From Lachnospiraceae bacterium (GTDB lineage Bacteria > Bacillota > Clostridia > Lachnospirales > Lachnospiraceae): a stretch of DNA of 64,000 nucleotides. The notes below the pieces were generated by a model that had not been told where the DNA came from, did no database searches, and was given only the letters and a program-made list of their open reading frames with translations. A program made the position numbers and the translations under genes. Location of the stretch: NCBI GenBank assembly GCA_015057025.1, contig SVFD01000004.1:124001-188000 (forward strand), in the 5' to 3' direction. Positions 37,145 to 52,835 of this stretch are shown piece by piece; the first letter of the stretch is position 1; each line of letters starts with the position of its first letter.

Positions 37145-37972
37145 TTAAATGATAATTTTTTTAAGCACTTCCAATACCTCTTCATATGAAATGTCACTGG
37201 CATATGCATATTTTTTCTGATATTTGCTCCACATATTTTTAAGATCAACATTCTCTGAAATCTGTTTCAAAATACCCTCTACATCAGCAATCTGTTCTGT
37301 ACTTCCACGATGCTCTGCTGTAGCTTTCAAAGCTTCTTTGTAAATTTCCTTATTATATTCTTGCGTTTTTCCAAGTATGTAAACATCATAATAATCTCTT
37401 GGTCTTGTAGTAAACACGCCTCTGCGAAGAATTGTCTCAATTTTTTCAGCTATAACTGTTTCAATATTATATCCCCACAAGCTAATACGAATATCTTCAT
37501 CGAAAATACCACTAAACTCATATTTTACTGCATCAGGAGTGATTACATCGCCTGTGGAAACATCAATAGATAATGGTGTAACTATTGTGTCGTATACTGC
37601 GTCTAACCTAACACAATAACCACCATAAATATCATCCTTGCGAATTGGTTCAATAGATTTTACGACAAATGCAACATCATCTCTCATATCGATTTTACAA
37701 ATTGTATTAACTGCTTCTGCTATTTTTTCTTCTGTCAACGGCAGATTACGAATTGTCGTGTCTAAATCCATCGTGCTTCTGGTATCCAATCCAACAATGG
37801 CCGCTATCAGCAATCCACCTTTTACCACAAACTTCTCACTGTATTCGGATGCTGATAACCTTGTCAGAAAACATTCAAACATATAATTTTGTAGAACTAC
37901 CTGTGCTGCTATGTTATTACTCTTTGCATAATTTTTAATTCTTCCCTTTAAACTCATAGCTTTAGAAGTCAT
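37145..37972 (-). CDS. abiEii: AbiEii/AbiGii family nucleotidyltransferase toxin
   Basis: A 275-residue toxin of type IV toxin-antitoxin systems, a nucleotidyltransferase that blocks growth and aborts phage infection. Core motifs are VVKGGLLIAAI (the GG/GS region, about 48-58) and STMDLDTTI with the metal-binding D-x-D (about residues 68-70). RPRDYYDVYIL follows further on, as is typical of the family. The ATG overlaps the antitoxin stop by four bases (ATGA) and has GGAGGTG upstream. The hairpin at 37001-37037 follows. Confidence 0.93.
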   Translation of the reverse strand: MTSKAMSLKGRIKNYAKSNNIAAQVVLQNYMFECFLTRLSASEYSEKFVVKGGLLIAAIVGLDTRSTMDLDTTIRNLPLTEEKIAEAVNTICKIDMRDDVAFVVKSIEPIRKDDIYGGYCVRLDAVYDTIVTPLSIDVSTGDVITPDAVKYEFSGIFDEDIRISLWGYNIETVIAEKIETILRRGVFTTRPRDYYDVYILGKTQEYNKEIYKEALKATAEHRGSTEQIADVEGILKQISENVDLKNMWSKYQKKYAYASDISYEEVLEVLKKIII

Positions 37973-38562
37973 AGCAACACCTCCAAATATTGTTTTAACC
38001 TCTTGCTCACTCTGAATTTTTCCGCATATACAGCCAAACGGTTCAAATCCTTATCATTAAATGCCGCATAATTTTTTACCGCACTTATTACTGTTTCCTC
38101 ATCTATACGGTTTCTTGAACGCATCAAATCACATATGGTACGCTCCGCATCATAGCATCTTACTTCATTGCCAAAAGTTGTCTTTTTCCACACCACTCCC
38201 AATGTAAGCAACTCCGGCTTTATATAATAGCAATTGCATTCTTCCATTAAAGTATTTGATAATACTGAATTACTTGGAATTGTAACCGAATGAGTAAACG
38301 GTGTTCTTTCAGATAATCCATTTAAAAATAATGCCGTATCATGTGAAAATATAATCTTTTCCGACCTAAGCATTAATGTATACATATCATCATGAACAGA
38401 ATCCGGCAATATATAAATACCCTGTCGACCGCGCTCTAATAAGCCCTCCTTTACATATTTGGATAATATAGCTCTTGAAAAACCTAATGCAACCACTTGT
38501 GCAGTTGTAATTATATTATTATTCTTTTGTATCTCTTTCATAATCACCTGATTAATTTCCAT
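37969..38562 (-). CDS. abiEi: AbiEi antitoxin (type IV toxin-antitoxin system)
   Basis: 197 residues. An N-terminal winged helix (IITTAQVVALGFSRAILSKYVKEGLLERGRQGIYIL, about 15-52) is followed by the AbiEi C-terminal domain, including LFLNGLSERTPF and YDAERTICDLMRSRNRID. AbiEi antitoxins neutralise AbiEii without a stable complex and repress their own operon through the winged helix. GGAGG eight bases before the ATG at 38562 decides the start, rejecting the ATG at 38577 that lies across the ribosome site. It is coupled to abiEii by an ATGA overlap. Confidence 0.93.
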   Translation of the reverse strand: MEINQVIMKEIQKNNNIITTAQVVALGFSRAILSKYVKEGLLERGRQGIYILPDSVHDDMYTLMLRSEKIIFSHDTALFLNGLSERTPFTHSVTIPSNSVLSNTLMEECNCYYIKPELLTLGVVWKKTTFGNEVRCYDAERTICDLMRSRNRIDEETVISAVKNYAAFNDKDLNRLAVYAEKFRVSKRLKQYLEVLL

Positions 38563-38690
38563 TACAACCGCCTCCATATTTTACTTTTATATAGATATAA
38601 TATTTCTTTTCTATATGATTGTCAACCATCTCTTTGATCAGAACACCTAATCCCAAAAGACAATCCAGTTAATTTACCATGTTTCTCCCC

Positions 38691-39976: not shown

Positions 39977-41116
39977 TTATCTTCCGCAAAGTTCCGGGTG
40001 CTCTTTTTTTATCTCTGCCTTATTATGATACATCTCTTCATCAGCCTGATTATAAATTTCTTTATAATTTACAGAATACTCACCGGAAGCATATCCCATA
40101 GCAATACTTAATAGAATCGGACTATCCTTATATTCATCGCAAGCACGCCGTACGCTTTCCATATCCGCTCTTACAACTTCATCTTTTGGTGAAATATAAA
40201 TTGCCACAAACTCGTCACCACCTACGCGATATACGTCTTGAGCATGCGCAAGATGTGTATTTAAAATTCCTGCTGCAGCACGAAGCAATTTATCTCCCTC
40301 TATATGGCCGTATTTATCATTTATAACTTTCAAACCATTCATATCACAAATGACAAAGCCAATCCTTGTTTTCTTTTTGCTATACTTCTTTTCCATCTGT
40401 TCTAATTGCATTTTATATCCGTTTTTATTCTTAATTCCCGTTGCAGCATCCCAATATACCTGCTCCCGATATTCTTTGGCCGGATTATTAAAAGTAGCAA
40501 ACAAGCCCAAACAGACAAACGTAATAGCTGCACTGGTCATAAGGAGTTCCGGTATCAGTGCTTGCACCACTATGACAAGAATCATAAGCCCCGTCATAGG
40601 ATAAAGAGTAGCTTTTTTCTTCCGTTCCAGCTTATTGTGGTTTGTAACAACCAAAATAAAACAAACAATGCAATATACCACAAAACATCCATACCCCACA
40701 AAAATAAGCGGACCATAACTGTAATTTGTACCATTTCCCATCACATATTCTACCGGAAAGAAAAAAGCAGAAACGGCAAATACGGTGGCCGGTATCCATT
40801 TAAAAATCTGTGCAATCTTCCTTACTTTTTTTGAGGTAGTCAACAACATAATATACTCATAATATGCCATGGTAAATGCAATACTGAAAGCATAAAACAG
40901 AATATGGCATATTGCGTTTAATTTCGGTGGCACTGTATAAACATTATTTACTGTAATTACTGTAATAATATCGAAAACCACATGCCCCAGGGCATAAATC
41001 AGAATCCTGAAAAAAGTGTTATGTTCTGTCTTAATTCTGTAAATACCCGTATAGCACAGAATAAAGGTAATTACAACAAGACAAACAAATTCTTCCCTAA
41101 GAATCAGCAGCGACAT
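39977..41116 (-). CDS. Membrane diguanylate cyclase (GGDEF)
   Basis: 379 residues. Seven or so hydrophobic segments (about 1-210) are followed by a GGDEF domain (about 215-375) with an intact VGGDEF signature near 297-302, so it is probably active in making cyclic di-GMP from GTP. The position of the inhibitory I-site (RxxD) holds HAQD instead, suggesting no classical product inhibition. AAGGAGG before 41116 supports the start. It is next to the AGCS symporter on the same strand, 34 bases away. The sensed signal is unknown. Confidence 0.93.
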   Translation of the reverse strand: MSLLILREEFVCLVVITFILCYTGIYRIKTEHNTFFRILIYALGHVVFDIITVITVNNVYTVPPKLNAICHILFYAFSIAFTMAYYEYIMLLTTSKKVRKIAQIFKWIPATVFAVSAFFFPVEYVMGNGTNYSYGPLIFVGYGCFVVYCIVCFILVVTNHNKLERKKKATLYPMTGLMILVIVVQALIPELLMTSAAITFVCLGLFATFNNPAKEYREQVYWDAATGIKNKNGYKMQLEQMEKKYSKKKTRIGFVICDMNGLKVINDKYGHIEGDKLLRAAAGILNTHLAHAQDVYRVGGDEFVAIYISPKDEVVRADMESVRRACDEYKDSPILLSIAMGYASGEYSVNYKEIYNQADEEMYHNKAEIKKEHPELCGR

Positions 41117-43982: not shown

Positions 43983-45371
43983 ATGTTTGGCGATAATTCA
44001 AGTAAAAAAGAAAAAATGAATATTATTATTGTAGGTTGCGGGCGTGTAGGTTCCACCCTCGTGGAACAGCTTAGCAAAGAAGGCAATAATATCACTATTA
44101 TTGACAAAGACTTTGAAGTAATTGAATCCCTTACCAACTTATATGATGTCATGGGCGTTGTTGGAAACGGAGCCACCTACAGTGTCCAAATGGAAGCCGG
44201 CATTGAAAACACAGACCTTTTCATTGCAGTTACGGAATCTGATGAATTAAATCTGCTTTGTTGCACCGTTGCCAAACGTGTCAGCAACTGTTCTGCAATT
44301 GCCAGAGTCCGCACACCGGAATACAGCAAAGAGGCCGCATACCTGAAAGAAAAATTAGGTCTTGCAATGATTATCAATCCCGACTTGGAAGCTTCCAGAG
44401 AAATTGCAAGAATCCTTGCTCTTCCCTCTGCATTGGAAGTAAACTCCTTTGCACACGGTCAGGCAGAATTGATTAAATATAAAGTACCGGCTGAAAGTAC
44501 ATTAAACGAATTAGCTATTATGAATCTGGGCAAAGCTGTATCACAGCAGGTATTAATTTGTGCAATTGAACGCGACGGAGAAGTTTATATACCTTCCGGT
44601 AATTTTATTATTAAAGAAGGCGATATCATTACTTTTGTCGCCACAAGAAAGCAGGCGCGCAAGTTCTTTATCGCTCTTGGTTCTAAAGTTAAACGAGTTC
44701 ATAATGCCATGATTATCGGCGGCGGTAAAACCACTCATTATTTGGCAGACCAGTTATTACATGCCGGTATCAGCGTGAAAATTATTGAGAAAAAGAAAAA
44801 ACGTTGTCAGGAATTAAGTACTCTTCTTCCTAAGGCTATTATCATAAATGGTGACGGCACGGACGAAGAACTTTTACGTGAGGAAGGTATTGAAAGCATT
44901 GAATCTTTTGTTCCTTTAACCGGAATTGATGAAGAAAATATTATGCTGACTTTATACGCAAGACAGGTTTCTCCTGCCAAGGTAATTACCAAAATCAATC
45001 ATATTACCTTTAAAAATGTAGTAAATAATCTTGATTTAGGTAGCGTTATTTATCCCAGGTATTTAACTGCTGAAGCCATTATTGCATATGCACGTGCCAA
45101 AAAAGACTCTTTGGGCAGCAATATTGAGACTCTGTACCACTTATTTGATTCCCGCGTGGAAGCCATTGAATTTGTAGTACGCCCGGATTCACATGTAATC
45201 AATGTTCCTCTTATGGAATTAGCATTAAAAAAGAATCTTTTAATTGCTTTTATTAATCGTAATGGTTCCATCATTATCCCCAGCGGTCAGGACTGTATCC
45301 ACCCCGGTGATACGGTAATGATTGTAACCACACATACCGGTTTTAACGATATCAACGATATCTTGGAATAG
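43983..45371 (+). CDS. trkA: Trk potassium uptake regulatory subunit TrkA
   Basis: A 462-residue cytoplasmic NAD-binding subunit that gates the TrkH channel. Two RCK units are visible: VGCGRVGSTLVEQL (about 17-30) and IGGGKTTHYLADQL (about 243-256), each followed by TrkA_C domains. GAGAGGCG before 43983 supports the first ATG rather than the internal one at residue 12. It is followed after 16 bases by trkH, as expected. It is transcribed divergently from the aldo/keto reductase. Confidence 0.96.
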   Translation: MFGDNSSKKEKMNIIIVGCGRVGSTLVEQLSKEGNNITIIDKDFEVIESLTNLYDVMGVVGNGATYSVQMEAGIENTDLFIAVTESDELNLLCCTVAKRVSNCSAIARVRTPEYSKEAAYLKEKLGLAMIINPDLEASREIARILALPSALEVNSFAHGQAELIKYKVPAESTLNELAIMNLGKAVSQQVLICAIERDGEVYIPSGNFIIKEGDIITFVATRKQARKFFIALGSKVKRVHNAMIIGGGKTTHYLADQLLHAGISVKIIEKKKKRCQELSTLLPKAIIINGDGTDEELLREEGIESIESFVPLTGIDEENIMLTLYARQVSPAKVITKINHITFKNVVNNLDLGSVIYPRYLTAEAIIAYARAKKDSLGSNIETLYHLFDSRVEAIEFVVRPDSHVINVPLMELALKKNLLIAFINRNGSIIIPSGQDCIHPGDTVMIVTTHTGFNDINDILE

Positions 45372-45387
45372 GAGGAAGCTTGTAGCC

Positions 45388-46857
45388 ATGAACTTTTCCA
45401 TTATTCGCTATATTCTGGGCTGGATTCTCAAAATCGAAGGTGCTTTTATGCTTCTTCCCTGCCTGACAGCACTGATATACAAAGAATCACAAGGTTTTAT
45501 TTATCTGGCTGTCGCGGCGGTTTGTATATTACTTGGACAATTGATGTCCTTCCGCAAGCCTAAGAGCAATGTTTTTTATTTAAAGGAAGGTTGTGTTGCA
45601 ACTTCATTAAGCTGGATTTTTATGAGTATTTTCGGCTGTCTTCCTTTTGTGTTTACAGGTGAAATTCCCTCATTTACAGATGCACTTTTTGAAACCATTT
45701 CAGGTTTTACCACTACAGGAGCAAGTATTTTAAGTGAAGTGGAATATTTATCACATTGCTCCACCTTATGGCGGTGCTTTACCCACTGGATTGGCGGTAT
45801 GGGTGTATTGGTTTTTTTACTTGCCATTATTCCCATGAGCGGCGGTTCCCACATCAATTTGATGCGCGCAGAATCTCCCGGACCTTCTGTCGGTAAAATA
45901 GTTCCCAAGATCAAACATACAGCGCGAATTTTATATTTAATATATATTGTAATGACTGTACTTCAATTAATCCTGCTATTGTTAGGCGGTATGCCATTCT
46001 TTGAAGCATTAAATACTGCCTTCGCAACAGCCGGTACCGGTGGATTCGGTATAAAAAATGACAGTTTTACAAGTTATTCTCCCTATTTACAATGGGTAAC
46101 AGCTATATTTATGCTTTTATTTGCCGTAAACTTTAATGTTTACTATTTAATTCTTTTAAAGAAATTTAAAAAAGCATTTTATAATGAAGAAGTACGATGG
46201 TTTTTTATCATTGTAATAACAGCAATCGGACTCATCACCATAAATATTTATGAAATTTCCGGTAGCCTCTTTAAGGCATTAACCGATGCTACTTTCCAGG
46301 TAGCTTCACTGGTATCTTCTACCGGTTTTGCCTCTGCTAATTTTGATGCATGGCCTGCTATCTGCCGTACGATTTTAGTATTAATTATGTTTGTGGGAGC
46401 CTGTGCCGGAAGTACAGGCGGCGGTCTGAAAGTATCACGTTTTATCATCATGGTAAAATCCGTATTCAAAGAATGCTACTCTTATATTCATCCAAAGAGT
46501 ATTCGAAAGATTCAGCTGGATGATAAGGAAGTAGAAGATGAAACCGTTCGCTCCGTTGCAGTTTATGTGTTAACCTTTTTACTGGTTTATGGTATATCCA
46601 TGATTGCAATTTCCTTTGATGGGGAGAGCTTCACAACTAATTTTACAGCAATTATTGCCTGCATTAATAACATTGGTCCCGGCTTGGATGCCGTAGGTCC
46701 TACATGTAATTTCGGCTTCTTTTCAAACTTTTCTAAATATGTTTTAATGTTTGATATGATAGCCGGGCGTTTGGAATTATTCCCGCTGTTAATTCTCTTT
46801 CATCGCGGAACCTGGGAAGGTGTTTTCCACAAGAAAGGAAATTCCGAAACCAAATAA
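45388..46857 (+). CDS. trkH: Trk potassium transporter membrane subunit TrkH
   Basis: A 489-residue potassium channel-like transporter. The four selectivity-loop repeats are visible, including TISGFTTTGAS, ATAGTGGFGI, SLVSSTGFAS and NNIGPGLDAVGP, with long membrane helices between them. AGGAGG lies about 12 bases before the ATG. It forms a two-gene operon with trkA and ends at the strong terminator 46864-46907. Confidence 0.96.
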   Translation: MNFSIIRYILGWILKIEGAFMLLPCLTALIYKESQGFIYLAVAAVCILLGQLMSFRKPKSNVFYLKEGCVATSLSWIFMSIFGCLPFVFTGEIPSFTDALFETISGFTTTGASILSEVEYLSHCSTLWRCFTHWIGGMGVLVFLLAIIPMSGGSHINLMRAESPGPSVGKIVPKIKHTARILYLIYIVMTVLQLILLLLGGMPFFEALNTAFATAGTGGFGIKNDSFTSYSPYLQWVTAIFMLLFAVNFNVYYLILLKKFKKAFYNEEVRWFFIIVITAIGLITINIYEISGSLFKALTDATFQVASLVSSTGFASANFDAWPAICRTILVLIMFVGACAGSTGGGLKVSRFIIMVKSVFKECYSYIHPKSIRKIQLDDKEVEDETVRSVAVYVLTFLLVYGISMIAISFDGESFTTNFTAIIACINNIGPGLDAVGPTCNFGFFSNFSKYVLMFDMIAGRLELFPLLILFHRGTWEGVFHKKGNSETK

Positions 46858-46930: not shown

Positions 46931-47308
46931 TTATAAAATATACGATCTGCTCGGTGTCTCACTAATCTCCATCTGCAGAAGCTCCCAATTCATCAAATCC
47001 ATTTTCTGCCTTATAATATCCTTAAAATGTTCTCCGATATTTTCTAATGTGGGCACCTTCTGATTAAACGGTTCCACATCATTAAGACAAATATTCTGGA
47101 AAGGCTTCAATACCCCATTGATCAATTCTTCTATTTCATGAAACATAACAAAATCACCATTTTTATTTTTTAACTCCACGGCAAATTCCCATGTATGGGG
47201 ATGTATCATTCCCGGCTCGCCTGTGGGAGTAAATATATAATGATTTGCATCCAAATAGAATTTGTAACGATATACTCTGTATTTAATCGGTCTGTAAATA
47301 TCACTCAT
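46931..47308 (-). CDS. QueD-like protein 1 of the XrtG operon, lacking the catalytic Cys
   Basis: 125 residues of the 6-pyruvoyl-tetrahydropterin synthase/QueD fold. The zinc-binding histidines are visible: His23 (DANHYI) and His36/His38 (IHPHTW). The cysteine that normally sits between them as catalytic nucleophile is absent. The C-terminal Glu (QMEISETPSRSYIL) is kept. PTPS-related proteins of this kind are known companions of exosortase G. It is the last gene of the six-gene operon and overlaps the glycosyltransferase by 8 bases. A redundant pterin enzyme is unlikely; a repurposed ligand-binding or other enzymatic role is inferred. Confidence 0.82.
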   Translation of the reverse strand: MSDIYRPIKYRVYRYKFYLDANHYIFTPTGEPGMIHPHTWEFAVELKNKNGDFVMFHEIEELINGVLKPFQNICLNDVEPFNQKVPTLENIGEHFKDIIRQKMDLMNWELLQMEISETPSRSYIL

Positions 47309-48635
47309 CTTTATTCTCTTTCTTAATATGAAAATCCTTTTTTACAATATCCTTAGCAATCTCTATTTCTTCCCTAAAATTAAATGTTCTCCAAGAGCTT
47401 GCACGATTTATGGAATTAATGATACCCATAAATCGTAAAACAAAGGTGTAAAGATTATATAACGGATAAACTAATACATATAAAAATTTCGATATGTAAT
47501 ACTTCTTATCGTCTTTAAAATCTTTTAAAAACATACACACATTTAAGAAATATAACATGGTGCATATTACATATAATACATAAATCAACAACAATGCCGT
47601 TAAAACCGTCTTAAGCGAATAATTAAGCATACTCAATGCTACCAACGCAAAATACCAAATCAGACGTGGAAATGCAAATGTATGGTCAAATAAAATTACC
47701 CTAAAGTCAATGTCTTTAAAAAGATTATGCATATGCATCTTCTTACCATAAAACATTTTAAAAACTTCCAATTCCCCAATCTGCCAACGCTGCCTCTGAG
47801 TATACAGCTTATTCATATCATCAATGGGGGATACGTAAAAAATCGCATCCTCGCACAATTCCACACGTTTCTTTTGTCTTTTAATTTGGAATGTAATATG
47901 CGTATCTTCGCAAATAGTATCGCTGTTATACATCTGCGTCTGTAAAATCGTAGACTTACGGAATGCCGAAAAAGCACCTGAAAGGGTATATAAACCATTA
48001 ATTTCAGAGGAAAAGTTTCGTCCGGCCAAAAACGCCTGACAATATTCCAGATACTCCAAGCGACGTATCTGACGTAACCAAAATCCTTCTGTTTCCTCGA
48101 TTTCCTTATATTCAGTCAATATAACACCGGTAAAACTGTTAACATCCATTTCTTTTTCAAAACGTTTAACAATATTACGGATTGCGTCTTTTTCAAATCT
48201 GCCGTCGCTGTCTACGTTGATAATGTATTTACCACGGCTGTTAAATAATGCTTTATTCAATGCTTTGGACTTTCCCTGATTAGAAACCATCCACTGCATA
48301 CTCAAATCCGAATATTCCATCTGACAACGTTCAAAGATTTCAAAACTGTTATCCTTACTTCCGTTATCTACCAGGAAAACCGTAATCAAGCGATTATCAT
48401 AATTGGATAAATGTATGGATTCCAAGCATTTATGCAACGTATCTGCGGAATTATATACCGGAATAATAATTGTAATTTCAGGAAACAGAATTGGGTCTTC
48501 AATCTTTTTACGCCGCAGGTATTTTACAATTAAAAGCAGGAAATTACAAACCGACGGAATAATTTCAATGATAAGAGGCAGAATGACCCATGCCAGCCAA
48601 AACAATATTTCATTGTTTATCATCCAAGTTCTCAT
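47301..48635 (-). CDS. XrtG-associated family 2 glycosyltransferase
   Basis: A 444-residue membrane glycosyltransferase. A hydrophobic N-terminus precedes the GT-2 domain: IIPVYNSADTL, VDNGSKDNS, IINVDSDGRF (the DxD), and later QRQRWQIGELE (a QxxRW motif as in processive enzymes). Several membrane helices follow (about 325-420). A GT-2 of this type accompanies XrtG in Firmicutes. It overlaps xrtG by 26 bases and the QueD-like gene by 8. It may glycosylate the target protein or build a surface polymer to which the target is attached (inference). Confidence 0.88.
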   Translation of the reverse strand: MRTWMINNEILFWLAWVILPLIIEIIPSVCNFLLLIVKYLRRKKIEDPILFPEITIIIPVYNSADTLHKCLESIHLSNYDNRLITVFLVDNGSKDNSFEIFERCQMEYSDLSMQWMVSNQGKSKALNKALFNSRGKYIINVDSDGRFEKDAIRNIVKRFEKEMDVNSFTGVILTEYKEIEETEGFWLRQIRRLEYLEYCQAFLAGRNFSSEINGLYTLSGAFSAFRKSTILQTQMYNSDTICEDTHITFQIKRQKKRVELCEDAIFYVSPIDDMNKLYTQRQRWQIGELEVFKMFYGKKMHMHNLFKDIDFRVILFDHTFAFPRLIWYFALVALSMLNYSLKTVLTALLLIYVLYVICTMLYFLNVCMFLKDFKDDKKYYISKFLYVLVYPLYNLYTFVLRFMGIINSINRASSWRTFNFREEIEIAKDIVKKDFHIKKENKDE

Positions 48636-49206
48636 AACTAAATTTTCCTACCTTTTGACCAATCACCTGATGTCTTGTAAATACATAGAAATACAAACAT
48701 AAGGTTAATACATAAAATACGATTCGTCCTACGATTGCATGGGCCAGCGAATATACCGGAGTTCCAAAACAAAATATCATCCAGATAATCGTATAGATAC
48801 GGATAAAGTTAAAAACGCATATATACAACACACCTACAATACCTGTAATAATTTTACGAAGGGGCTTATATGCCGGAAAGAAAGCCAACAATGAAATATA
48901 TACCATCATTTCAATAATTCCCGAACATTCCATATCTACATACAAGGACATAACCGTATCGTTATGATTGATAAAAAACATGCCGTACTGGGCATAACTT
49001 TCATACATGCCCGTAATATCGCCGATACCGCCTAATACCCACACAAAACCATAAATAAAATAGTCTTTTACATAAGGCATAAAATTCAGTAAAACAAAAA
49101 ATGTACCCACGCTTCCTACCAGAAAATAATAAAAGCCTAATTTTCCCCTTTTTAAAACTGTCAGTGCATATACCCATAGCACAAACAAAATAATTTTCAG
49201 AATCAA
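48610..49206 (-). CDS. xrtG: Exosortase family protein XrtG
   Basis: A 198-residue multi-pass membrane transpeptidase-like protein. The exosortase triad is visible: Cys94 in VDMECSGIIEM, Arg136 in FNFIRI and His156 in LAHAIVGR. The small size fits the Gram-positive XrtG type. Exosortases cut a C-terminal sorting signal and transfer the protein to an acceptor. It is coupled by overlaps to a QueD-like gene (4 bases) and the glycosyltransferase (26 bases). A protein with a fitting GTSSGP tail is encoded two genes upstream. Confidence 0.9.
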   Translation of the reverse strand: MILKIILFVLWVYALTVLKRGKLGFYYFLVGSVGTFFVLLNFMPYVKDYFIYGFVWVLGGIGDITGMYESYAQYGMFFINHNDTVMSLYVDMECSGIIEMMVYISLLAFFPAYKPLRKIITGIVGVLYICVFNFIRIYTIIWMIFCFGTPVYSLAHAIVGRIVFYVLTLCLYFYVFTRHQVIGQKVGKFSYENLDDKQ

Positions 49207-49535
49207 AATTCTTCCACTCCTATAATATAAGTCTGCACCGGCGAATCACTCATTTCCAGACGGACTACTTCAAAATCCGTATGAAGCATATTAATTTCTT
49301 CGTAAATTTGCTCTGCCATATTCTCTATGGTCGGTACAATAGTAAGCACTTCGTTTAAATCAGCTCCTACATACTTTGCCATATAGTCATTAATCAGCTT
49401 CTCTGCTTCATGAAAAAATTTAATTTCCTGACGCAGATAAAATACAACTTCAAAAGAATGCGTATGTGCAGCACCTTCTCTGCCTGAAGTATTATGTCTG
49501 GCATTGAAGCGATAACTGTATTTATAAGTTCCCAT
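49203..49535 (-). CDS. QueD-like protein 2 of the XrtG operon, lacking the catalytic Cys
   Basis: 110 residues, same fold as the QueD-like protein at 46931-47308 but clearly diverged. Zinc ligands: His14 (FNARHN) and His24/His26 (AHTHSFEV). No cysteine lies between them. GAGGA precedes the ATG at 49535; an in-frame extension to 49601 is rejected. The start overlaps the CTERM-protein gene by 14 bases, and the end overlaps xrtG by 4. Having two cysteine-less paralogues in one operon suggests a heteromer or two steps. Confidence 0.82.
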   Translation of the reverse strand: MGTYKYSYRFNARHNTSGREGAAHTHSFEVVFYLRQEIKFFHEAEKLINDYMAKYVGADLNEVLTIVPTIENMAEQIYEEINMLHTDFEVVRLEMSDSPVQTYIIGVEEF

Positions 49536-50313
49536 CTTTTTTCCTCTTCCGTAAAAGCAGACCGCACAATACCACACCGCCACACATAGCAGCCAATGCA
49601 ATCGGTCCGGAAGACGTACCTACTGCTGAAATTCTGCGATACATCAAATTCGGAGTATGAAATTCTATTGTCCCCAATGTCTCCACGTTAATATTCGGAT
49701 TCTGACGCTGTAACTCAATGAGTGGAATGCGAATCTCCAATTCGTTATTGATATTATCCTCTGTTCTGAGAAGATAACCATTGGTGCCTTCAGCTCCCAA
49801 GAAGGACAACTTAGTATCCCTGTGTCTGATTTCAACCGGATATATCCCCGGTGCATCATCTACCGTAGTTCCAAGCTCTTCTCCGTCCTGCGTTACCACT
49901 TGGAACGCTGCCATTTCACCGCCTACATAAAACCGGAAATCATCACCGTTTATTTTGTTAATATAATTTCTTCCGTAGATAATATGTAAATATACATATT
50001 CACCGTCGCAGTACATCTGCATCTTATGACGCACATCCGTACTGTAGGTACCGGGCTCTGTTTTATAACATTCTTCTTCGTTAATCCATACACCCCAATA
50101 CCAGCAGTTTTGGGAATTATCCCAGTTATATTCATAAGAACAGGGTAAAGTGTCCCAATCTGAGAATTCACCGTCAATGGCTATAGATGAACCATTGCTC
50201 AAGGAAAACGAATTCGTGTATGTTCCGTCAGTAGCATAAATAACAGATGCATTTCCCCAAAGAAATACAAAACATAATATAAATAATAATATTATCTTAC
50301 TACTCTTTTTCAT
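49522..50313 (-). CDS. Secreted protein with Firmicu-CTERM-like sorting tail (probable XrtG substrate)
   Basis: 263 residues. A signal peptide (about 1-28) precedes a beta-rich domain starting IAIDGEFSDWDTLP, like the opening of CBM9/DOMON-type domains. The tail has GTSSGP (232-237), a hydrophobic helix and RKRKKDGNL, which is the tripartite layout of the Firmicu-CTERM signal associated with XrtG. It overlaps the upstream membrane-protein gene by four bases (ATGA). Encoding enzyme and target in one operon supports an enzyme-substrate pair. What the central domain binds is unknown. Confidence 0.85.
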   Translation of the reverse strand: MKKSSKIILLFILCFVFLWGNASVIYATDGTYTNSFSLSNGSSIAIDGEFSDWDTLPCSYEYNWDNSQNCWYWGVWINEEECYKTEPGTYSTDVRHKMQMYCDGEYVYLHIIYGRNYINKINGDDFRFYVGGEMAAFQVVTQDGEELGTTVDDAPGIYPVEIRHRDTKLSFLGAEGTNGYLLRTEDNINNELEIRIPLIELQRQNPNINVETLGTIEFHTPNLMYRRISAVGTSSGPIALAAMCGGVVLCGLLLRKRKKDGNL

Positions 50314-52679
50314 CCTTTTACCTCCTGCTCCTTCTTCATTCTTTTATTCAGAATAATCATGAAACCGATTCCTGTTAATGTGCATAGCAAGCCCAATACA
50401 AAGTGCTTGTAATATATCTTAATAACCGTAGTTCCTTCATCCACAACCAACATATTATCACGTTCGTAAATATCTCTGTCAGACCGGAAATTATCCTGAA
50501 ATGCAATGGTAGTATTCACTTTCTCGTCCGTATGAATTGTAATACGATTAATGCCATATTCTACTTCAATCGGTACAATTTCTTCTGCAATTCGTCTGTC
50601 GGCATCTTCAATGTCAAAGATCTCATCTAAGATTGCCAGCAATTCCTCATTAGGCGTGTCATAATATAAATACACCAAATTAAATCCTACGAAGGTGATA
50701 TTGTCTCTTTTTATCAGATAATCTATGGTCTGTTCACCGTATTGATAAGAATGTCTCTCCATTTCAACATCATCTACCTGTAACAGATATGTAGAATACC
50801 ATTCATAGGGTATTTCAATGTCAACTTCCATATCGCCATAATACAGCGTATCGAATTCCGATATGCTTAAAAACCGGCTTTCGACACCGAGAAACTCCGA
50901 TATGGATAATACATTAATCGGCATATGTGTACAATCAATGAAGATTTCAACACCGGAATCTGATAATTTCTGCACGATTTCTTCTGCATGCTCTACGTCA
51001 TCGTATTCAAAATTAGATAAATATATTTTATCATACTGCAACAATTCTTCTATGGAATAATCCGTAAGACAGTCACTGTATCCCTGTTCAAAGCCGGGAT
51101 ATAAGTAAGAAATATATATAGATGACGAGCCTATGGCAAGACTGTTATATTGGCTCTTGACGCCAAAACTTCCCTCTACACCTTCCAAATCAAACAAATA
51201 AGAATCTGAACTCTCCTGCACAAGTACATATCCGTATTCTTCTGCAGTTTGAATAAATCTTTCTGTATCCTTCACAAATGTCTTTTTTACAATAACAGAG
51301 TCAGCACCCATCCCCAGCAATTGATGGAAGGTATATCCATAATATCCCTGTTGGATACTCTCTGTCATAGTAATAATATTTTCACTGGTTTTAGCACCCT
51401 GAATTGCCCAACCCTGAATATAGGGAGTATCAGTTTTTAAAGCATAATAAGAAGGATAGGAGCCATATAAACTTTCGTCCACCAAACCTAACCGGTTTTG
51501 TGTAATTTCAACACCGGATTCCAGTAAATATGTATTCTCCTGGTATGCCAGATCCGATTTTACATTGAAGAATGCCAGAGAGGGAATCAAATCCAATACT
51601 GCCACTCCCACAACTGCGTATTTCCAATACGGCTTCCAATTCAGACGTGCAAAATCATACAAAATCAAAATGTAACACATCTGAACAAAACGCGACATCC
51701 AGAATACCTGACTTAACGGCAATTGCTTAAATACTTCCGTAAAAATTGTATCGGATAGAATAAAAAATATTAAACCTACGATAATACCGCTTTTCTCGTC
51801 TTTATTTCGCTTTGCTACAATCAGCCCTGCGATTCCCATAATAAGAACACCCAAGCCAAACGAGCAGTTAATGTCATCCCTCAAACGATTAAACGGACTA
51901 AGCGAAAGATATAAGGGCTGGCTCCAATCTTCGATGGTATCTACAGCCGCAGAAGAAGAATCCGATACCAATCCGCCGCTCAACCCCGGCAAAAGCAGAA
52001 TTCCGGCAATCAGAATACCTGTTACAAAAGCAAAAAAGCCATACCACTGAGTTTTGTTTTTTAAACCTTTAAAAAATCCATAAATTGTAAAAATAATTGC
52101 ACACATGGCTGCCAGCATAAAGTGAGTAGATACTAACAATGCAACCAAAAGTGAAGTTATGACAAAATGTTTTTTATGTTCTATTAAATTAGTATAAAAA
52201 TAAAAGAACAGCGGCAAAAGCGCATAAATCATAACTCTCGACAAATTACCCTCACCAAAAAGCACACGAAGGCAATCCGGTAAAAACCAATATACAATAC
52301 CAATCAGAATAAAAATGCCTTTATTCTCCCTGTTGGCAATCAAAACAAAGCCTAAATACGATACAAAAAATGTTAATCCCACATATACATAATATGCTAT
52401 AAAAATATCTCGGGTCAGAAAATTAATAAAAGCAATAATGTAGTATGTAAAAATAGGCCAATATCTAAATAACTGTATGCCGTTATACCACTCAGTGGTA
52501 TATAAAGGATACAGATTCCATTGTTTTAAATTGTCATATAAAATTTCGGCTTTGTATAAATGACCGAAAATATCATTACCGGTAGGGATAAAAGAAGTAA
52601 GTGCTAAATACAACGTAATACCCACACTGATGATAATTCCGATTCCAAGCTGCCAAATAAGTTTCTTTTTACTGTTCAT
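50310..52679 (-). CDS. PTPS-related large membrane protein, first gene of the XrtG operon
   Basis: A 789-residue integral membrane protein with about eleven N-terminal helices. It contains the PTPS-related signature GNDIFGHLYKAEILYDNLKQ followed by YPLYTTEWYNGIQLFRYWP, typical of GT-C-like/YfhO-like membrane enzymes. A large soluble extracytoplasmic region (about 430-755) contains a glutamine-amidotransferase-like strand order (YDKIYLSNFEYDD ... IFIDCTHMPIN). One C-terminal helix follows. Such proteins accompany exosortase G. A lipid-linked sugar transferase role is plausible but unproven. It overlaps the CTERM gene by ATGA. Confidence 0.8.
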   Translation of the reverse strand: MNSKKKLIWQLGIGIIISVGITLYLALTSFIPTGNDIFGHLYKAEILYDNLKQWNLYPLYTTEWYNGIQLFRYWPIFTYYIIAFINFLTRDIFIAYYVYVGLTFFVSYLGFVLIANRENKGIFILIGIVYWFLPDCLRVLFGEGNLSRVMIYALLPLFFYFYTNLIEHKKHFVITSLLVALLVSTHFMLAAMCAIIFTIYGFFKGLKNKTQWYGFFAFVTGILIAGILLLPGLSGGLVSDSSSAAVDTIEDWSQPLYLSLSPFNRLRDDINCSFGLGVLIMGIAGLIVAKRNKDEKSGIIVGLIFFILSDTIFTEVFKQLPLSQVFWMSRFVQMCYILILYDFARLNWKPYWKYAVVGVAVLDLIPSLAFFNVKSDLAYQENTYLLESGVEITQNRLGLVDESLYGSYPSYYALKTDTPYIQGWAIQGAKTSENIITMTESIQQGYYGYTFHQLLGMGADSVIVKKTFVKDTERFIQTAEEYGYVLVQESSDSYLFDLEGVEGSFGVKSQYNSLAIGSSSIYISYLYPGFEQGYSDCLTDYSIEELLQYDKIYLSNFEYDDVEHAEEIVQKLSDSGVEIFIDCTHMPINVLSISEFLGVESRFLSISEFDTLYYGDMEVDIEIPYEWYSTYLLQVDDVEMERHSYQYGEQTIDYLIKRDNITFVGFNLVYLYYDTPNEELLAILDEIFDIEDADRRIAEEIVPIEVEYGINRITIHTDEKVNTTIAFQDNFRSDRDIYERDNMLVVDEGTTVIKIYYKHFVLGLLCTLTGIGFMIILNKRMKKEQEVKG

Positions 52680-52795
52680 ATTAACCGCTTTCTTTTTAGG
52701 GCATATATATTAAATTATAACATTAAACTTTCAGTAAGTAAAAGCCGCGAATCACCTTTTTATGACAAAATATTCATCATTGGTGCATAAAAATC

Positions 52796-52835
52796 GCCCC
52801 GAGCCCGGTTCTTATGTCAGAACCGGACCCGAGGC
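52796..52835 (-). terminator. Terminator of the 48-residue membrane protein gene
   Basis: GCCCCGAGCCCGGTTCT (52796-52812) pairs with AGAACCGGACCCGAGGC (52819-52835) with two mismatches, a very GC-rich stem for this region. TTTTTATG follows on the minus strand. Confidence 0.85.

Follow-up and report, generated by a model that had tools for sequence, protein, structure and literature searches.

An XrtG exosortase operon of a Lachnospiraceae bacterium with two QueD-like proteins that lack the Cys-Asp-His triad

Described systems and placement of the locus

The XrtG/Firmicu-CTERM system (TIGR03110, TIGR03111, TIGR03112 and TIGR04145) is already catalogued in NCBIfam without an assigned function, and the sole paper found on it describes its over-expression in L. 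plantarum strains (PMC12854382). A member of this system was analyzed here in a 64,000-nucleotide stretch from the genome of a gut-type Lachnospiraceae bacterium (contig SVFD01000004.1, positions 124,001 to 188,000; hereafter the window), in which an operon at 46931-52679 of the minus strand encodes the exosortase XrtG and two small QueD-like (QD) proteins, α and β. QueD (PTPS-I) and the other COG0720 subfamilies share with these two proteins the PF01242 fold, the zinc His triad and the TxEN and E-T-P motifs, but the window proteins are without the Cys, Asp and His of the QueD triad, QDα has HPHTWE instead of HGH, and the QD genes are tied to XrtG rather than to queuosine or folate genes. The PTPS-III enzymes of Plasmodium and bacteria show that a PTPS without the Cys can take on another function (PMC2229834, PMC5041015). 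Two synthases controlled by cyclic di-GMP, NfrB of E. coli and Gts/PdeB of L. acidophilus, resemble the operon in combining a membrane GT2 glycosyltransferase (DxD, TED, QxxRW) with cytosolic signalling parts; their receptors, however, are MshEN or degenerate EAL domains and not a tunnelling fold, and no XrtG is described for them (PMC8669469, PMC6123363).

Six genes whose neighbours overlap by 4–26 nucleotides were found, in the transcription order membrane protein (MEM), target protein (SUB), QDβ, XrtG, GT2 and QDα (Table 1). An earlier, sequence-only reading had described six overlapping genes including XrtG, its GT-2 and a substrate-like protein with a GTSSGP tail, all of which were recovered. 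XrtG, with its Cys, Arg and His residues all present, exceeded its curated cut-off (TIGR03110, 102.75 bits), as did the adjoining GT2 (TIGR03111, 363.95 bits), SUB as dedicated target (TIGR04145, 50 bits), QDα (TIGR03112, 69.35 bits) and MEM (PF10131, 26.4 bits). QDβ scored 51 bits against TIGR03112, under the cut-off, and passed PF01242 (22.4 bits). The locus is thus a member of the XrtG/Firmicu-CTERM system with all parts above or near the curated models and with the gene order of many Lachnospiraceae loci, in a short form of six genes from which the sensor gene is absent.

XrtG and above-cut-off TIGR03112 proteins occurred in an identical set of 20 of the 299 family genomes examined, for which the probability by chance is 1 in 7e30, assuming that genomes are independent. 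In the host genome, SUB was the sole Firmicu-CTERM protein, and QDα and QDβ were the only two PTPS-family genes; since there is no other QueD, QueD function is not in play.

Table 1. Features of the XrtG operon and its upstream region in the window.
Feature	Position	Strand	Description
MEM	50310..52679	-	789 amino acids; GT-C-type membrane protein with multi-transmembrane N-terminal half and large extracellular part; PF10131 407.8 bits
SUB	49522..50313	-	Firmicu-CTERM target of 263 amino acids with signal peptide, beta-rich domain containing IDGEFSDW, and a tail of GTSSGP, transmembrane segment and KRKK; TIGR04145 77.9 bits
GTSSGP motif	49603..49620	-	Predicted XrtG recognition/cleavage region from sequence; conserved position in homologs
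QDβ	49203..49535	-	QueD-like protein of 110 amino acids if started at ATG 49535; zinc His triad present, catalytic Cys, Asp and His absent, degenerate pocket; PF01242 29.6 bits
XrtG	48610..49206	-	Exosortase, 198 amino acids; TTG start overlapping QDβ stop; Cys94, Arg136, His156; TIGR03110 178.6 bits
GT2	47301..48635	-	XrtG-associated glycosyltransferase, 444 amino acids; DxD, TED, QxxRW; TIGR03111 586.6 bits
QDα	46931..47308	-	125-amino acid QueD-like protein; pocket H23 H36 H38 E41 Q71 E89 E117 R121; TIGR03112 122.2 bits, PF01242 66.4 bits
Promoter-like site	52714..52742	-	Directly 5' of operon; TTTACT-17-TATAAT with TG before -10; consensus scan only, 10/12 matches
Terminator-like hairpin	52796..52835	-	Upstream of operon; 17 pairs, 11 G-C, then T run

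The open reading frame of QDβ as listed starts at TTG 49601; judged from the purine-rich ribosome site that precedes it, ATG 49535 is the likelier start and gives a 14-nucleotide overlap with SUB. In the consensus scan, the count of promoter-like sites in the region was near the shuffled mean. The terminator-like hairpin separates the operon from the gene upstream, and no Rfam family matched the hairpin region. A TrkA/TrkH potassium uptake pair (43983-46857, plus strand) lies convergent with the operon, and an AbiEi/AbiEii-type toxin-antitoxin pair was found at 37145-38577 (minus strand; PADLOC: AbiEii 322 bits, AbiEi 222 bits).

Residue survey and paralogy of the QueD-like proteins

A sample of 109 related loci, a few of them duplicates, yielded 169 QueD-like domains (numbers preceded by L denote loci of this sample). 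The three zinc histidines were retained in 164, 162 and 162 of the 169 domains (about 97%), including H23, H36 and H38 of QDα and H14, H24 and H26 of QDβ (numbered from the ATG). Cys was present at the catalytic position in 0/169, the triad Asp in 3/169 and the triad His in 5/169. The base-recognising Glu of TxEN was invariant (169/169), and a Glu or Asp stood ahead of the Pro of ExxP in 165/169. The sequence-only reading, which had noted for both window proteins a kept His triad and a missing catalytic cysteine, was thus borne out as far as it went, with the addition that Asp and His were lost along with Cys. With its recurrence in 169 homologous domains, the pattern is not due to chance.

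In a tree of these domains, two groups matched operon position without exception: α, encoded downstream of GT2 (90 domains), and β, encoded upstream or fused to other proteins (77 domains). Local support was low for the α clade (0.37) and high for the main β clade of 70 domains (0.97), and seven MEM-fused domains branched outside both. QDβ of the window grouped with the upstream paralogs. By tree and operon position, QDα and QDβ are identified as ancient paralogs. The α proteins carried an HPHTWE signature, with Q replacing the triad Asp (90/90), E following HxHTW (90/90) and R in SETPxR (87/90); residues at the former Cys position included L, K, Q, P, M and R, with no conserved substitute. 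Conservation in β was largely confined to the His triad and a single Glu. HGH was found in 0/90 α and 3/77 β domains. The Glu that replaces Cys in PTPS-III (ExxHGH) was found in 0/90 α domains, and the relaxed ExxHxH motif in 0/90 α and 24/77 β domains, QDβ of the window not among them. As a candidate for such a replacement in QDβ, Glu20 was rejected, since it is not conserved and is displaced from the ExxH motif by one residue. In one relative, a 363-amino acid tandem QueD-like protein was observed (L098, 17022-18113) in which the second copy has lost its zinc histidines.

Among 87 complete loci, 61 had both α and β and 16 had α alone; another 9 were counted as β alone and 1 as neither, some of the β-only scores stemming from duplicate removal or cut contigs. 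In L062, where the MEM reading frame is without its N-terminal part, no QD was detected.

Gene fusions, target protein and glycosyltransferases

Nearly all parts of the system were joined by fusion in one relative or another. A QD domain formed the N-terminus of MEM in 26 proteins and was fused to the target in one (L036); the target formed the C-terminus of MEM in L054, L060 and L062 and the N-terminus of XrtG in 10 loci (L026, L027, L029, L030, L175, L179-L183); a two-transmembrane sensor was fused to QDα in 6 proteins; and GT2 was fused to a sensor in L111. An XrtG-GT2 fusion (L063) was set aside, part of its GT2 being missing. Such a pattern of fusions usually marks subunits with a joint function, and these links point to a single membrane complex of which SUB would be a working part and not only cargo. 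As assessed by hydropathy and charge, QD domains lay either ahead of an inward-anchored transmembrane segment or after the second transmembrane segment of the sensor, which places them in the predicted cytosol.

The GTSSGP motif of SUB, which precedes a transmembrane segment and KRKK, was kept in position in homologs as G-x-[SP]-[ST]-G-x. A fold search with the AlphaFold2 model of SUB (predicted local distance difference test score (pLDDT) 83) returned no match at E≤0.001, and the sequence profile gave only a weak match to CBM74 (E 0.33). The IDGxFxDW motif resembles CBM9 and might hint at a carbohydrate-binding fold, although neither the fold search nor the profile search confirmed this. In the ten target-XrtG fusions the exosortase Cys was replaced by Asn (9/10) or Ser (1/10); unfused XrtG proteins, including sisters from the same family, kept it in 112/112. 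It would seem that in these fusions an inactive exosortase is attached to the very protein that it would process. Because they fall in one clade, Cys may have been lost in one single event. The substitution fits a situation in which SUB, already fixed to XrtG, would no longer need to be cleaved or transferred.

Motifs typical of processive synthases (D, DxD, TED and QxxRW) are present in GT2; they were invariant in 15 relatives and occur likewise in NfrB (PMC8669469), and the GT2 profile matched BcsA and hyaluronan synthase. In L044, L116 and L143 the XrtG-associated GT2 was lengthened to about 960-985 amino acids; the extra part in L044 is a sulfatase-family domain, which suggests a phosphoglycerol-type decoration of the product. 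The MEM sequence gave weak matches in a search of the PDB, and its assignment as GT-C came from the fold search: the AlphaFold2 model (pLDDT 87) matched AftD (E 9e-8), DPY19, AftA, OST, PglB and ArnT, with E-values from 9e-8 to 6e-4 and TM-scores of about 0.4. PF10131 is likewise placed in the GT-C clan CL0111 (PMC7801869). Compared with GT-C glycosyltransferases such as AftD, DPY19, PglB and ArnT, MEM has the predicted fold and clan in common; it is only about 10-12% identical to them and has additional extracellular domains. The EL1 Asp is present in MEM of the window. MEM had been read as a PTPS-related membrane protein, a term that agrees with the Pfam name of PF10131; the window protein itself has no PTPS domain, and the name may derive from relatives with an N-terminal QueD-like domain, such as the 26 seen here.

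Proposed function, alternatives and candidate ligand

The operon would encode one membrane assembly that makes a cell-surface glycan, or a glycosylated target, coupled to a dedicated exported protein. GT2 would begin or polymerise a sugar chain at the cytosolic side, and MEM, as a GT-C glycosyltransferase, would work at the outer face with a lipid-linked donor. XrtG would cut the target at GTSSGP and transfer the C-terminal end so created to an acceptor, for which the glycan or a glycolipid is plausible. QDα and QDβ, having lost QueD/PTPS chemistry, would serve as cytosolic tunnelling-fold subunits that bind a small ligand with a guanine- or pterin-like edge. Zinc and the conserved Glu would hold this ligand, by means of which the two proteins, probably in the form of an α/β hetero-oligomer, would act as a switch on the synthase part or stabilise it. 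Ligand binding within a glycan-synthase/exosortase complex is the likeliest of the roles considered for the QD pair, though only about as likely as not. A view of the operon as protein sorting with two accessory enzymes is too narrow: the many fusions, a GT2 of processive type and a MEM with GT-C fold point to one membrane complex for glycan assembly, with the QueD-like domains as its cytosolic parts. The suggestion from the sequence that the QD proteins might bind a pterin-like or other ligand agrees with the conserved pocket.

What the sequences show is the gene content, residue conservation, paralogy, pairing with XrtG across genomes, fusions and a predicted cytosolic placement; glycan, cleavage, covalent coupling, ligand and regulation are inferred. 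Several observations weigh against this proposal. All counts cover related sequences and not independent events. In most loci QDα is encoded by a separate gene, so that its membership in the complex is predicted from fusions in some relatives. The α/β pair is not obligatory, given the α-only loci (16/87) and the few β-only loci, and MEM may not be catalytic everywhere, as the EL1 Asp that characterises GT-C enzymes is absent from some of its relatives (L037, L069 and L081). The α pocket, moreover, is conserved in an enzyme-like manner and includes residues not in QueD (Q, E and R), which favours a rival in which QDα is a new type of zinc enzyme (three His, E41, Q71, E89, E117 and R121) whose reaction would provide or alter a donor or cofactor for the complex, with QDβ as non-catalytic partner. 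Within this fold, substitution of the Cys is known to create new activities, as with the Glu that replaces it in the enzyme of Plasmodium (PMC2229834) and the ExxHGH motif of PTPS-III (PMC5041015), and pterin precursors exist in the host, which has one GTP cyclohydrolase I. The Cys position of α has no conserved substitute of any kind, however, and QD domains are often fused to membrane proteins or found at the site of a degenerate signalling domain in relatives, which is more typical of receptors. A new zinc enzyme, as also raised in the sequence-only reading, is therefore possible but somewhat unlikely; the almost invariant pocket agrees with it for QDα, and it is less likely for QDβ, in which only the His triad and one Glu have escaped degeneration.

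That same degeneracy of QDβ, together with the close physical contact to MEM, target and sensor evident from the fusions, would suit metal-stabilised structural scaffolds that bind no small molecule. Conservation of about eight pocket residues of QDα in nearly all 90 sequences goes beyond the needs of a scaffold and makes this improbable. Captured queuosine or folate enzymes still running QueD or PTPS-III chemistry might be expected from the PF01242 membership and from public records, in which related genes are labelled '6-carboxytetrahydropterin synthase'. With the triad Cys, Asp and His lost, the PTPS-I/II/III signature motifs in none of the α proteins, strict pairing with XrtG and no other QueD in the genome, a queuosine or folate role was rejected, and retention of such chemistry is hardly credible.

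Tunnelling-fold enzymes read the 2-amino-4-oxo edge, common to pterin and guanine, via a conserved Glu, and a guanine nucleotide would therefore be a sensible ligand for the QD proteins. Genomic association in related loci makes cyclic di-GMP (c-di-GMP) a candidate. Relatives from Clostridium have, between GT2 and QDα, a gene for a two-transmembrane sensor with a GGDEF domain (Pfam: L112 78 bits, L121 60 bits) in which the GGDEF motif is missing. Iterated profiles, at ever weaker similarity, placed such a GGDEF-derived sensor between GT2 and QDα in about 46 distinct loci, and in six loci QDα itself stood in place of the output domain of the sensor. On the Lactococcus lactis plasmid pBV60 (L185, 3968-10246), a PAS-GGDEF gene with an intact RYGGDEF motif and an EAL gene lie directly upstream of a minimal SUB-xrtG-GT2-QD operon; the plasmid was typed as conjugative, and phage records contained no relative of the L. 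lactis QD. It is conceivable, though rather unlikely, that the QueD-like pair forms a receptor class of its own for guanine nucleotides, c-di-GMP being the most likely one, in which a tunnelling-fold pocket that formerly recognised the pterin edge has come to recognise guanine and to switch the glycan synthase/exosortase complex. Against a c-di-GMP receptor stand the window locus itself, which has no GGDEF-derived sensor gene, and the analogy of PdeB in L. acidophilus, by which the EAL protein could be the receptor instead. A text search of an incomplete literature collection returned no account of a c-di-GMP receptor with a tunnelling fold. The host genome encodes 19 GGDEF domains; one membrane protein whose diguanylate cyclase domain has an intact RVGGDEF motif is encoded in the window at 39977-41116 (minus strand), about 6 kb from the operon.

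The residue survey of 169 domains, the α/β paralogy by operon position and the identical pairing with XrtG in 20 genomes are new here. For a system that is spread through Clostridia, carried on a Lactococcus plasmid and reported in L. plantarum, the database label of a queuosine enzyme gives way to a testable model, a glycan/exosortase complex with cytosolic ligand-binding subunits. Judging from the natural target-exosortase fusions without the catalytic Cys, the 'sorted' protein would be a functional component of the machine and not cargo, and, if the ligand is a guanine nucleotide, the QD proteins would represent a new receptor fold for bacterial signalling.

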